Source: a virus. Taken from it: 21,517 bases of DNA. This document shows positions 3,340 through 20,027 of the stretch, in pieces; positions within the stretch are counted from its first letter, which is position 1; every line of letters begins with the position of its first letter. The stretch lies in the IMG/VR virus record IMGVR_UViG_3300050821_015928, positions 1 to 21,517 of that record; one strand, written 5' to 3'. Under the pieces are notes generated by a model. The model had not been told where the DNA came from. It was given only the letters and a program-made list of their open reading frames with translations, and made no database searches. The position numbers and the translations under genes were made by a program.

Positions 3340-3475
3340 TTCGCCTCTCGCCTAACGGGAGAGGCCGCGAGCGCTTCGGCGCGAGCGGGTGAGGAGGCTC
3401 GGATGTTTGGAATCGTAGGGGCGGGTTTGAGACCCGCGCCTACGTGCCGGCTCTCGGAATAAAGCAACGGATCTG
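3340..3475. repeat. Two dispersed-type hairpin repeats between lysis genes
   Basis: The gap upstream of the DUF1906 gene holds two palindromic units. The first (3351-3395) begins with a CCTCTC…GAGAGG hairpin followed by GAGCGCTTCGGCGCGAGCGGGTGAGG. This resembles the CTCTCCCGTTAGGCGAGAGG-type intergenic repeats common in Rhizobiales genomes (from memory). The second (3416-3445) is a strong hairpin, GTAGGGGCGGGT and ACCCGCGCCTAC around a TTGAG loop, 11 of 12 positions pairing. This is another repeat type that I recall as dispersed in bacterial chromosomes. Neither has a T run, so they are not obvious intrinsic terminators. They look like host repeats inserted into the late operon. Confidence 0.6.
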
Positions 3476-8986: not shown

Positions 8987-9607
8987 TCACGGTTTCACGC
9001 TGCGGAACTTCATGCTCTCGAGCCTCCAGAGGCTCGCCATGAATTCCTCGAAGTCCATCTGGTCGTCGAGAAAGCGGCAGTTGAAGGCATACGAAAAGTC
9101 GGCCGAGACGGTGGCGCCGCTGGCCGGCGCGGACGTGAAGGCAACGGTGTTCGGTGGCGTCAAACTATAGCCCGACGAGGATTGCACGACGCCGTTGAGA
9201 TAGACGTTGGCGATCGCGGTCACCCAGCCGACCGGTTCGAGAAAGCCGCCGAGCGAGCGCATCATCGTGAACGACGTGGTCGAGCCGTCTCCTGTCGCAA
9301 AAGCCTGGCCGGTAACCGCATTGTCGTCCGGATCGGCATAGAGGAACGTGCCGAACTGGCCCTGCAGCTGCAGGAAGAAGCCCATCAGGGTCTGCAGACT
9401 CGAGGAGCCGAGTCCGGCGAAAGCCGGGGTCGCCGAGGAAGCAAGTCCGCTATACACGACCTCGAACTCGTAAAGCGGATAGCTCATCAGCGCCACGCGC
9501 ACCTCGCGGCCGGACACATGCGAAGCCACGCGCGTGGAAAAGCCAGGCTTCTTGTGCCGCGACCACGTGAGACCGGCAAGGCTCGGCAGCGAGGGCGGCG
9601 TGGTCAT
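8987..9607 (-). CDS. Distal tail protein, DUF2460 family (GTA g12-like)
   Basis: The 206-residue protein shows the whole DUF2460 pattern: LTWSRHKKPGFSTRVASHVSGREVR near residues 13-38, LQTLMGFFLQLQGQFGTFLY, a beta pair around ATGDGSTTSFTM and VYLNGVVQ, and the acidic end DDQMDFEEFMASLWRLESMKFRSVKP. DUF2460 proteins form the distal tail ring joining the tube to the hub. The ATG overlaps the stop of the TIM-barrel/DUF2460 fusion by 4 nt (ATGA). The C-terminal domain of that upstream protein is clearly homologous to this one, so the pair looks like a tandem duplication. Confidence 0.88.
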   Translation of the reverse strand: MTTPPSLPSLAGLTWSRHKKPGFSTRVASHVSGREVRVALMSYPLYEFEVVYSGLASSATPAFAGLGSSSLQTLMGFFLQLQGQFGTFLYADPDDNAVTGQAFATGDGSTTSFTMMRSLGGFLEPVGWVTAIANVYLNGVVQSSSGYSLTPPNTVAFTSAPASGATVSADFSYAFNCRFLDDQMDFEEFMASLWRLESMKFRSVKP

Positions 9608-12108
9608 GATCGAACCGTGCGCAGCTTGAGCGATTGCAGTGCGTAGAGCGCCACCATGAACTCTTCGGTATCCAGGTCGTCGTCATCGAAGCGGCAAAGA
9701 AAGTACCAATGAAAATCCGCCGCCACGGCAACGCCGGCCGCCGGCGCTGTCGCGAAAGTCACCGATGGTGCGAGCGCCGTTGCGTTCACCGTAAAGCCGC
9801 TCGATTGTGGCACGCCGTCGAGATACACAGCCGACACTGTGCCAACGTTTGCCGGCGCAACCTCAGCGCCGCCGATCGACACGGTGAACGCAAACGTCGT
9901 GGTCGCGCCGTCGCCCGTGCTGAGCGCCTGGCCGGAAACCGGCGAGAGCGTGGGCGGTTCGAACAAGAAGGATGTGGCTTCGCCGGCGCACTGTTCAAAG
10001 AAGCCAGCGATGGTCTGCAATTCGGTGTTGGGCGACACCATCCGCAGAAGATCGTAATTCAGTTCGATCGCCCACAGCGGCGAGGCGTATTTGGCCGCGC
10101 GCACCTCGCGCCCGGAGACGTGCAGGCCTGCGGCCGTCGAAAAGATCGGCGAGAGCGTCACCGACCAGCCGAGCGTCGGCACCACCGGAAACGTCGAGTA
10201 CGGACCGGACGCCGGCGGATTGGTCGGCACCGGCTGGCTCAAGAGCGGCCCCTTGCCACCGAGCCAATTCCCCGCCGGCCAGTCGCCGGTGTCGCCCCAC
10301 ACGCCCGTCAGTTGCGGAAAGACCGGGAAAGGCCGCGCATCCCAGTTCCAGACCGACATGAACGTCGTTTGGATCATGGGTACACCGCCGGAGGAGCTTT
10401 CGTTGTTGCCGTCGGTCACCCAATATTCGTAGATCGCCTGCAGCGCGAGCAGCTGCAGCTCGTCGTCCCGGCGCGGCCAGTGATCGCCCGCGACGCTCTG
10501 GCTCGGATCCCAGATCGACCAGAATGGCGTCGCGCTCTCGACGGAAGCCGGGCTGTAGAAGACATTCGGCTGGTTGGTGCCCTTGTCGCACGCCGGGAAG
10601 CCGTATTCGGCAAAGGTGATCGATTTGGATTGCGGCGCCCACTCCGTGTACGGGCCGTGCGGCGACCAGCCAGTGCCGTCGCCATCATCGTAAATCGCCT
10701 GGTGCGGATTGTTCCACCACCACCGCAACTGCTTGTTAGCCAGCAATTGCTGGTTCGCACTGTAAGTATTGCGCGATTGCGTCAGCCGATCGCCCTGGGG
10801 CAGCGACACGCGCAGGTCCGTTCCGTTCGGATCGAGCCCGATGCCGAGATTGTTGCTGTCATTGTAGAACCAGTTGAAATACTGCCCGGCTTCGATGTTC
10901 GCCTTCAGATAGGGAATGCTGTAGATCGTCGGCTGGCCGCTCATGCCGAGGCCATTGAATGCTGCCGCTGACGGCGGCCACGCGCCGTTCGGCGCCGGCG
11001 CAAGCCAATTGGACGCGTCCAGGCCGCCATCGCCTGTGGTCCAATCAGACAGCGGCAGGTAGTTGTCGAAGCAAACAAGGTCGATGTTGCCGTGGCCGTA
11101 AAGCTGATCGAGATGCGGCCATTGTCCGTTTTCGCCCGGATGCTGATAGCCCATCCACACCGACCAGTCGGCCGAGTAAGAAATCAGGTTGTGCAGGTTC
11201 ACCGTATCCTTGGTGAGACTGGCCGCGTCGAAGACGCTGCGCACGTCGTCGGCAAGCTGCATCAGCCTGGCAACGAACGGGTAATCCCAGGTGACCTTGC
11301 CATCGCCGCCGGTCGTGCCGGCCTTGGTCCAGGCCGGACCACGGACCACTTCCAAGCCGCGGAATTCCGAGCCAAGCAAAAATAGATCGACGCCGCCTGC
11401 GACCACGCACAGATTGGCGTAGTGCAGGATCATGCGCCGGTAAGTGTAATCGGTCGGCGAGCCCGAATAAGCGACGGTCAGGTTCGTCGTGTCGGGCGTG
11501 AATTGCGAGGTCGCGGCAGCGCCGAGGAAATTGTCGATCGCTGTTGTGGCGGCGCTGGAGATGTCGCTCCCATTGTAGGTGATGTTGCCGCGCCACGGCT
11601 CGCCGCTCGCCGTCATCAGGATGAAAGGATAGAAAACGACACGCAGGCCGCGCGATTTGAGATCACGGATGCAACGGACGATCGATTGATCCGACGGTGT
11701 GCCGCCGTAGATGAAGGCGTCACCGATCTGCGGGATCGCAATCAAACCCGATGACGATTGGGTCAGTCCCGAGCACCGCCAGACATCGGTACCGCCGGCG
11801 GCCCGCTCAAAAACGCCGTTAATATACGTCGTCGACGGATAGATCTGGCATGCGGTGACATCGGTCGAGTCGCCGAACCAAGAGACGACCACGGCAACGG
11901 TCGTGCAGCCCGAAAATTCCGCCTGCAGGCTATTCAGCGAGATCGTGTAGTCGGTGGTCGAGCCAGTCCCAGCGAGCGGCCCCCCATTGGCGTAACGATT
12001 TATCGAGGTGAGCGTGCTCTCGGTGGCCCGCTGCCCCAGATAGGGGACCGTGTCATAGGTGAACTCTCCCGTCGACGGCAGAAGATTGACGCCGAGGACG
12101 TAGCTCAT
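9604..12108 (-). CDS. GTA TIM-barrel-like domain fused to a DUF2460 distal tail domain
   Basis: The 834-residue protein has two parts. Residues about 140-620 match the GTA TIM-barrel-like domain: IRDLKSRGLRVVFYPFI, LVCFDNYLPLSDW (344-356), SKSITFAEYGFPACDKGTNQ (494-513) and SVWNWDARPFPVFP (585-598). Glu501 and Asp349 could be active-site-like acids of a glycoside-hydrolase fold. Residues about 640-834 are a DUF2460 domain (GWSVTLSP…LHVSGREVR… LQTIAGFFEQ… DDDLDTEEFMVALYALQSLKLRTVRS), homologous to the next gene. In Rhodobacter GTA the TIM barrel belongs to the tip protein g15, so this fusion is a rearranged module. It probably sits at the distal tail and may bind or cut surface glycans. The ribosome binding site before ATG 12108 is weak. 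Confidence 0.88.
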   Translation of the reverse strand: MSYVLGVNLLPSTGEFTYDTVPYLGQRATESTLTSINRYANGGPLAGTGSTTDYTISLNSLQAEFSGCTTVAVVVSWFGDSTDVTACQIYPSTTYINGVFERAAGGTDVWRCSGLTQSSSGLIAIPQIGDAFIYGGTPSDQSIVRCIRDLKSRGLRVVFYPFILMTASGEPWRGNITYNGSDISSAATTAIDNFLGAAATSQFTPDTTNLTVAYSGSPTDYTYRRMILHYANLCVVAGGVDLFLLGSEFRGLEVVRGPAWTKAGTTGGDGKVTWDYPFVARLMQLADDVRSVFDAASLTKDTVNLHNLISYSADWSVWMGYQHPGENGQWPHLDQLYGHGNIDLVCFDNYLPLSDWTTGDGGLDASNWLAPAPNGAWPPSAAAFNGLGMSGQPTIYSIPYLKANIEAGQYFNWFYNDSNNLGIGLDPNGTDLRVSLPQGDRLTQSRNTYSANQQLLANKQLRWWWNNPHQAIYDDGDGTGWSPHGPYTEWAPQSKSITFAEYGFPACDKGTNQPNVFYSPASVESATPFWSIWDPSQSVAGDHWPRRDDELQLLALQAIYEYWVTDGNNESSSGGVPMIQTTFMSVWNWDARPFPVFPQLTGVWGDTGDWPAGNWLGGKGPLLSQPVPTNPPASGPYSTFPVVPTLGWSVTLSPIFSTAAGLHVSGREVRAAKYASPLWAIELNYDLLRMVSPNTELQTIAGFFEQCAGEATSFLFEPPTLSPVSGQALSTGDGATTTFAFTVSIGGAEVAPANVGTVSAVYLDGVPQSSGFTVNATALAPSVTFATAPAAGVAVAADFHWYFLCRFDDDDLDTEEFMVALYALQSLKLRTVRS

Positions 12109-18717: not shown

Positions 18718-18754
18718 GGTGCGGTTCCTGTTTGTTTGATGGTGGAACATGCGG

Positions 18755-18866
18755 CCGTCATTCCGGGGCCGAGCGAAAGCGAGGAGCCCGGAATCCATAA
18801 CCACAGTCTGTGATTGCGGATTCCGGACTCGCCGCTTCACGGCGATCCGGAATGGCGAGAAGACGG
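18755..18866. repeat. Palindromic dispersed repeat between protease and capsid genes
   Basis: The element begins CCGTCATTCCGGGGCC, reaches CCGGAATCC, and after a short centre runs GGATTCCGG to CCGGAATGGCGA…GACGG, so its ends and inner boxes are inverted copies. It matches, from memory, a dispersed intergenic palindrome common in Bradyrhizobium and relatives. It overlies the capsid upstream region but not its ribosome binding site. Its mRNA hairpin could reduce or protect capsid message. It also creates a false N-terminal extension of the capsid frame. Confidence 0.7.
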
Positions 18867-18872
18867 AGGCGG

Positions 18873-20027
18873 CTAATCCTGAGGCCGCCTGAAGCCCGGA
18901 ATGGCGCGCATCGGCGCGGCTTGCGCTTTGCGGATGGCGGCCTCGGCCAGCGCCTCAAGGGCGCCCGGCTGATCAAGCAGGGAATCGGGCTGCGGGAAGA
19001 TCGCATCTTCGCTCTTCTCAGCAACCCGCACGGAAGTGACGCCAAGCGGCAGCGGTTGACCCTCGATTTTCTTCAAGCGCGCGGCAAACTCGTCCATACG
19101 CGTGGTGATGCCGCCGAGCCCCTTCGCTAAAGAGCGCTGCAGAGACCGCTCCAGGCTCTTCGCAAGCTTATCGGTCTCCTCGTCGGCGGCTTCATCGTCC
19201 CCTGTCTCACCGGCCTGCGAAGGAAATTGCGGGCGGGAATCCACGTGTGCGCCCAGGAGGCTGGCGCCAGGGCAGCAATCGGGATCGAGTTCGACCAAAA
19301 GGTCGTGGGTTTGTTTGATGCGATCCTTGTCGACCTCAGAGTGCCGCGCCCCAATCTTGGCGAGGGCTTCCGCCACATCATTGCGAGGAGCCCCAACGGG
19401 GCGACGAAGCAGTCCAGCCCCCACCCTTCCCTCCCCCGCGAGCGGGGGAGGGTTAGGGAAGGAGTATTCTGGATTACTCCGCTGCGCCCGCAACGACGGC
19501 TCCCCGAATGCTTCGTCAGCATTGACCTTGAACTTACGCAGCTCCGTCGAGCCGTCCGCCTTGATGAGCGCGAAGGTCGCTTCCGGCAGGCAAGGATGAT
19601 CGACGAGTGAGACTTCGAGCGGCTCCGCCGTGTAGCGGGTCAACGCCGGCTCGTCGGGGTCCGGCCAGCGCTTGAGATAGCGCCCGCCCTGGGAGAAGCC
19701 GGTGTAAACCCCCTCCTCCACCTTCTGCCACTCGTCATCGTCGACAACCTTGCCGCAGATCTCGATCCGCTTCGCCTCATCGTTGAACGCGATCTCGACA
19801 AGCTTTCCGGCCGCGACATTCGCGTGCATGGCGCGCAGATTGCCGAAACTCTTGCCGTCGGTCGCATCGGCAAACCTTTGCGACCACTTCTGATAAAGCG
19901 GCTTGGTCGAGGCGTAATCGCAAACCTCGCCGGAAACATCCGGCGCCTCCGCGGTGACGACGCCGTAGACCAGGCGCTGCGCCGCATCGATCTTGGTGAT
20001 CGGAATGAAGAGTTTCATGTCATCCAT
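18873..20027 (-). CDS. Prohead protease–scaffold protein with in-frame repeat insertion
   Basis: The 384-residue protein has a prohead protease domain at 1-160: YGVVTAEAPDVSGEVCDY, LRAMHAN with likely catalytic His68, EEGVYTGFSQGGRYLKRW (104-121), and PLEVSLVDHPCLPEATFALI with likely Ser140. A C-terminal helical part (EETDKLAKSLERSLQRSLAKGL, ITTRMDEFAARLKKIEG) looks like a fused scaffold (delta-domain-like). Residues 176-218 (PSLRAQRSNP… PPPLAGEGRVGAG … GAPRNDV) are not phage protein: they are the translation of nested palindromic repeats, kept in frame without a stop. The insert falls between protease and the ARHSEVDKDRIKQTHDLL helix, a linker that could tolerate it. The protein should cleave capsid subunits during maturation. 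The first ATG (20027) has a G-rich site; Met4 is an alternative. Confidence 0.85.
   Translation of the reverse strand: MDDMKLFIPITKIDAAQRLVYGVVTAEAPDVSGEVCDYASTKPLYQKWSQRFADATDGKSFGNLRAMHANVAAGKLVEIAFNDEAKRIEICGKVVDDDEWQKVEEGVYTGFSQGGRYLKRWPDPDEPALTRYTAEPLEVSLVDHPCLPEATFALIKADGSTELRKFKVNADEAFGEPSLRAQRSNPEYSFPNPPPLAGEGRVGAGLLRRPVGAPRNDVAEALAKIGARHSEVDKDRIKQTHDLLVELDPDCCPGASLLGAHVDSRPQFPSQAGETGDDEAADEETDKLAKSLERSLQRSLAKGLGGITTRMDEFAARLKKIEGQPLPLGVTSVRVAEKSEDAIFPQPDSLLDQPGALEALAEAAIRKAQAAPMRAIPGFRRPQD
19378..19500. repeat. Nested palindromic repeats inserted in frame in the protease gene
   Basis: Outer arms CATTGCGAGGAGC…GACGAAGCAGTCCAG (19379-19417) and CTGGATTACTCCGCTGCGCC… CAACGACGG (19469-19499) are imperfect inverted copies, matching the dispersed ATTGCGAGGAGC-type repeat. 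Between them lies a second repeat with a perfect 11-bp stem, CCCTCCCCCGC / GCGGGGGAGGG (19429-19452). The whole block is translated in the protease frame. It looks like one repeat inserted within another. Confidence 0.8.

Follow-up and report, generated by a model that had tools for sequence, protein, structure and literature searches.

The prohead protease gene in the 21,517-nucleotide stretch of soil phage DNA analysed here (the window) contains a palindromic repeat of a kind that is multicopy in bacterial host genomes. A second repeat is nested in its loop, and both lie in the reading frame of the protease. We put the probability at about 0.87 that the host-repeat capture account set out here holds as a whole, from insertion and nesting to translation, tolerance at the hinge and recurrence. 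A multicopy host repeat, built as a head-to-head pair of arms resembling CGTC-tagged REPs, would have inserted by transposition or conversion into the prohead protease gene of a prophage that a Hyphomicrobiales bacterium carried. The second host repeat, of the GGGGGAGGG type, would have nested in its loop, either as a later insertion or because the composite arrived ready-made, and translation of both in an expressed protein would add about 41–42 residues. The insert would be tolerated because it is located in a variable, disordered hinge, and insertion elsewhere in the portal, protease or capsid would break the protein. The hinge would have been struck several times in the prophage family, or other host copies would have taken the place of its element. 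Despite the insert the protease presumably remains active, and in head maturation the linker is probably cleaved or shed; the self-processing of prohead proteases at that stage would be a simple reason for the hinge to accept inserts. The account draws its direct support from the nested element itself, the host copies, the empty sites in relatives, the common frame and site, the non-monophyly of the carriers and the predicted disorder.

A sequence-only reading of this DNA had placed a block of about 123 nt at 19378–19500. The block exists, and its limits read directly from the window are shifted by 2 nt (Table 1). The open reading frame of the protease runs across it without a stop, as had been proposed, and the insert encodes the peptide SLRAQRSNP...APRND, with the segments SLRAQRSNP... 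and ...LLRRPVGAPRND. The mRNA strand of the element folds into a single nested hairpin from end to end (-77.9 kcal/mol, z -7.48, with none of 200 shuffles reaching this stability); the plus strand with its flanks gives z -3.96. The long arm, which scores 20.5 bits against an HMM of the arms (WIN 2101–2140), holds the CCCCAACGGGG sub-hairpin variant, and the same variant occurs in host copies (L204, L224). The stem of the inner repeat carries no substitutions, so that this repeat is probably younger than the outer element. Among the homologues, the window protease is alone in having an inner repeat in the loop of its hinge element. An Rfam search of the window matched no family.

Table 1. Coordinates of the protease gene, its parts and the repeats in the window
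Feature	Position	Strand	Description
Prohead (head maturation) protease gene, 384 aa, bearing the insert	18873..20027	-	Identified by Pfam, PHROG, Foldseek and gene neighbours
Protease domain, residues 1–165	19533..20027	-	Conserved H68 and S112 (candidate catalytic residues); AF2 block with pLDDT 82–97
First helices of the C-terminal scaffold-like part, about residues 218–247	19287..19376	-	AF2 helices 218–225 and 231–247
Outer REP-dimer-like palindromic element (123 nt, inner repeat included)	19376..19498	-	Read as residues 177–218 of 384; arms match host arms TCATTGCGAGGAGCGAAGCGACGAAGCAATCC (long) and TCATTGCGAGCGAAGCGAAGCAATCC (short)
Long arm	19376..19417	+	CATCATTGCGAGGAGCCCCAACGGGGCGACGAAGCAGTCCAG; CGTC-type tag decayed to CATC
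Inner nested repeat	19418..19464		CCCTCCCCCGC/GCGGGGGAGGG; perfect 11-bp stem, 19429–19439 with 19442–19452; translated ...NPPPLAGEGRVGA
Short arm	19469..19498	+	CTGGATTACTCCGCTGCGCCCGCAACGACG, CTGGATT...GCAACGACG
Second host-type repeat, protease-capsid spacer, outside the insert	18756..18857		CGTC-tagged ATTCCGGG/CCCGGAAT pair with CCA tail; spacer RNA z -6.9

By sequence and model the window protein is an S78-like prohead protease, predicted to act on capsid or scaffold. Its match to Pfam PF14550 (Peptidase_S78_2) lies barely above the cut-off (25.1 bits against 24), the PHROG match is to head maturation proteases, and the best Foldseek match of the AF2 model is T4 gp21 (5jbl, E 2.6e-4, TM 0.57 by target); a sequence model above cut-off thus coincides with a protease fold of the Peptidase_S78_2 or T4 gp21-like kind. 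H68 and S112 are invariant columns in alignment A2. The portal gene lies upstream and a capsid-like ORF downstream. Elsewhere in the window (9604–12108) a GTA TIM-barrel domain is fused to a DUF2460 domain and followed by a second, separate DUF2460 gene.

The AF2 model, for which 55 diverse rows were used as input (21 similar rows gave a pLDDT of only 42), has a mean pLDDT of 74, with a further helix region at 282–323. Residues 184–217 fall below 50 and helices follow, and therefore the insert fills a predicted disordered hinge, naturally variable, that links the protease domain to the scaffold-like helices. This is the position proposed from the sequence, where a check for a disordered linker at residues 176–218 had been suggested. 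T4 gp21 and the XkdF-type Peptidase_S78_2 proteases share with the window protein the order of protease domain and then scaffold-like helices, but the hinge insert is foreign to that family.

As the window record is a lone IMG/VR contig, the word host is used here for the hosts of its close relatives. The closest prophages sit in Xanthobacteraceae metagenome-assembled genomes (MAGs) and in one Hyphomicrobiaceae MAG. A 17-mer of the arm is present in 27, 26, 4, 50, 17, 31 and 36 copies in the seven Xanthobacteraceae MAGs G001–G007, where the reversed pattern has 0, and in 0–1 copies in the Methylocella, Rhodoblastus and Methylobacterium genomes with distant prophages. Full-length relatives of the whole nested block, at 74–84% identity, occur in MAGs G005, G006 and G007, and the same composite of outer and inner repeat is found in host copies L204–L216. 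Since the nested block has full-length copies and the arm 17-mer is multicopy in host genomes, the palindrome is not a product of chance, and the host-type, non-phage origin suggested for it is borne out by many copies in the hosts of sister prophages. Host elements have short arms of the form TCATTGCGAGCGAAGCGAAGCAATCC and long arms of the form TCATTGCGAGGAGCGAAGCGACGAAGCAATCC, with loops of 19–31 nt, or about 48–55 nt when the GGGGGAGGG repeat is nested inside. The phage collection held no copies of the block, and one partial plasmid match came from Azospirillum. Of 297 host-family genomes scanned at E 1e-25, none proved a closer host than G007.

No mobilising enzyme was found. The Y1 tyrosine transposase family PF01797, which flanks or accompanies RAYT-mobilised REPs and REPINs, is present in four of the seven host MAGs and absent from G003, G005 and G004, the last being the richest of all seven in arm copies, although these MAGs may be incomplete. 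A parallel case occurs in a host gene. The class II ribonucleotide reductase NrdJ of G007, which also carries the sister prophage L094, has 62 extra in-frame residues of nested repeats (L217, G007:C61:1730-3769), inserted exactly between the positions of residues 499 and 503 of PDB 7b9q. An in-frame nested repeat is therefore also present in an open host enzyme gene.

Relatives of the protease were gathered from viral contigs and bacterial genomes, and 46 distinct close proteases were compared. The block is absent from 37 of them, so it is not a segment common to the family; their linker between the ELRKF and K.GARH motifs is 7–19 residues long, and that of the window protease 57. Outer-type elements also occupy this hinge, without change of frame, in eight other distinct homologues (L012, L015, L058, L019, L087, L088, L089 and L118), which encode the pattern SLR..RSNP ... 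LLRR..RND. Repeats are typical misassembly spots and the window is a metagenomic contig, but an assembly artefact joining host repeat to phage DNA is very improbable, given that the two flanks share a reading frame in nine distinct sequences, drawn from different projects, and that L015 and L058 have the same insert in different samples.

The arm HMM, for which reversed sequence gave zero matches at 10 bits or more, was run over the fetched loci. In-gene elements were found in the hinge alone (eight loci) and the others in spacers; none lay inside the portal, the capsid or the protease domain. Several other features of the homologues were observed. Distant homologues (L055, L057, L059, L065-L067, L074-L077 and L080) are about 600–700 residues long, with some 250–300 extra residues at the same hinge. 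A second insertion site follows the LDPDCC motif (about residue 252 in the window), where L019 has an intact inner-type repeat (PHPYPPPQAGEGWEG) and L046 a decayed one. The peptide FSPQAGEG (about 19201–19230 in the window; L003, L013 and others) is conserved in most close homologues and absent from distant relatives. It is identical to the translation of the inner GGGGGAGGG repeat, with DNA differences mostly at synonymous third positions, and may be a domesticated fossil copy of the repeat or a chance likeness.

On the protease tree, built with the hinge left out, the distribution of carriers requires at least five gains or losses, four of which are forced by well-supported branches. The grouping of carriers as one clade was rejected on this tree (AU p about 1e-43) and on the capsid tree (AU p 8e-4). 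The sisters L087 and L088 have their arms in opposite order and unrelated loops. The arms of L118 and L087 are identical at 26 of 26 positions in genes that are 60% identical at third codon positions, and those of L088 and L019 at 32 of 32 in genes that are 56% identical. Identity of arms between genes so diverged at third positions is not what vertical descent of an old single element would give. Because the carriers are non-monophyletic, the sisters differ in orientation and the arms are identical between diverged genes, the sequences indicate that the hinge repeatedly received separate recent insertions or had its element exchanged for other host copies. The insert described earlier is real, but the case is not unique, and the same hinge has been struck repeatedly in this prophage family. 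A target-site duplication was sought at the hinge and none was found; the linker flanks are too variable for one to be read.

Two forms of this history were weighed. In one, a single ancestral insertion at the hinge was lost on several occasions, and gene conversion rewrote it from other host copies, leaving elements that look young and vary in orientation and loop. All carriers share the site, the SLR...RND frame and a near-constant distance from the element to the K.GARH motif, the loops of four carrier elements are equal at 22 nt, and the flanks of the window and L088 are alike (KxNADE...P|SLR). The carriers are nevertheless interleaved with empty-site sisters on both trees, the arm order and loops of L087 and L088 do not agree, the empty sites hold no remnants, and repeated replacement by host copies would still be required; we regard an ancestral insertion as a tentative alternative. 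It is likewise doubtful, if possible, that the hinge is a true recurrent capture site in the stricter sense, at which independent REP-like insertions always entered in the one frame that gives a hydrophilic peptide (SLR..RSNP/LLRR..RND) and the peptide was then selected as a new protein segment. Such a peptide could serve, for example, as a processing site or spacer in head maturation, and the downstream PQAGEG could be an older, fully domesticated copy. The common frame of all inserts fits a shared ancestral insertion later overwritten and, equally, selection on independent insertions.

Host-repeat capture at a tolerant hinge was also set against the possibility that the insert damaged the gene and that the repeat is debris in a decaying prophage. 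Host repeats are abundant in the spacers of these prophages, and the isolate phage collection contains no full-length relative. However, the carrier frames are open, H68 and S112 are conserved, and the adjoining genes in the window are intact. L015 and L058, which share one insert, have a core dN of 0.011 and dS of 0.067 (dN/dS about 0.16), and therefore the protease gene was under purifying selection while carrying the insert; in the insert itself the values are 0.041/0.091, a higher ratio than in the core, from few sites. Decay is accordingly quite improbable.

In the arms, any constraint on the peptide is intertwined with any constraint on the RNA. Compared with matching consensus arms chosen from copies in the host and relatives, the window arms have six substitutions, none of which changes a residue when read in the protease frame (p about 0.003 on the assumption of neutral transitions); in the other two frames one of five and none of five are synonymous. 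Five of the six also leave the mRNA hairpin with a standard pair (G.U) at the changed position, so the synonymous pattern is confounded by RNA pairing. This retained pairing, the very stable nested hairpin (z -7.5) and the strong hairpin that mostly also precedes the capsid gene would suit a hairpin kept for an RNA role, such as a translation pause or mRNA processing between protease and capsid, with translation incidental. Most homologues, however, have no hinge hairpin, and the eroded elements of L089 and L012 keep the frame though much of their pairing is lost; we consider an RNA role unlikely.

The spacer between protease and capsid genes (18718–18872 in the window; L003-L160) mostly holds a strong host-type palindrome whose repeat family varies by phage. 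ATTCC..GGAAT pairs occur in 25 of 44, and CCTCCCC..GGGGGAGG and CCCCGCG types in others. The RNA fold of the spacer has a z below -3 in 29 of 39 (median -5.1), and these palindromes may tune capsid expression. The window copy has an 8-bp stem but a long loop. More host-like repeats (GTAGGGGCGGGTTTGAGACCCGCGCCTAC) lie at 3350–3450, in the spacer between a Mtd-like tail gene and a glycoside-hydrolase-like gene. In L116, L238, L245, L246, L269 and L301, the portal gene recurs in partial or complete copies, often of its 3' end (residues about 390–470), around other cargo near the protease.

In-frame palindromic repeats have been described mostly in bacterial housekeeping genes. What is new here is a virion-assembly enzyme as the carrier, the nesting of two repeat families and the recurrence at one hinge. 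The sequence-only reading was right in substance but understated: in this family of prophages the hinge is a site of repeat capture. At this one hinge, carriers and relatives range naturally from empty sites through fresh inserts to eroded ones, which amounts to a natural linker-tolerance map of a prohead protease and opens to test the long-standing question whether repeats, once captured, remain as neutral filler of the linker or take on a function as protein. Host repeat families thus invade resident prophages and can alter virion-assembly proteins, the hinge offering them a landing pad on which they may turn into new protein.

The closest known system is that of the CGTC-tagged REPs, which predominate in Alphaproteobacteria, form head-to-head dimers with a CCA tail, have no linked transposase and include RPE-4 and RPE-6 of Rickettsia conorii (Di Nocera et al. 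2013, PMC3733652). Phages do not figure in that paper. The arms of the host and of the relatives start with the CGTC tag (TGTC and CCTC are allowed), and on the coding strand of the window the element has CGTC at its left end and, at its right, GATG, a decayed form of GACG. The stems start with AT and an unpaired CCA tail follows (ATTGC...GCAAT, then CCAG). Both arms are tagged outward in the host copies read, with 4–50 arm copies per MAG. In place of the 8–9-bp stem and 4–5-nt loop of CGTC-tagged REPs, the arms pair over 5 bp (ATTGC/GCAAT) around a longer, purine-rich middle. Because this stem is lacking, we term the elements CGTC-like and do not count them as members; by sequence they resemble CGTC-tagged REP dimers, the superfamily of RPE-4 and RPE-6, which makes the parallel with Rickettsia palindromic elements drawn earlier an apt one.

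CGTC-tagged REPs thus share with the present element the tag, AT start, CCA tail, dimeric form and high copy number, and intragenic copies are known, but here the arms self-pair over about 5 bp only, and it is one arm pairing with the other that makes the large hairpin. The closest precedent for such recurrence comes from two Xanthomonas species, whose recB genes carry an intragenic CGTC-tagged REP at roughly the same position (PMC3733652). Nothing relevant to the insert peptide, or to head proteases with palindromic repeats, came up in a literature search. Rickettsia palindromic elements (RPE-1, RPE-4 and RPE-6, likened here through the descriptions in PMC3733652) are, like the present element, small palindromes in frame in protein genes, where they are translated and tolerated by the proteins (PMC2229807, PMC3733652). 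Unlike them, the elements described here lie outside Rickettsia, in a phage assembly protease, combine two nested families and occupy one site repeatedly across divergent phages.
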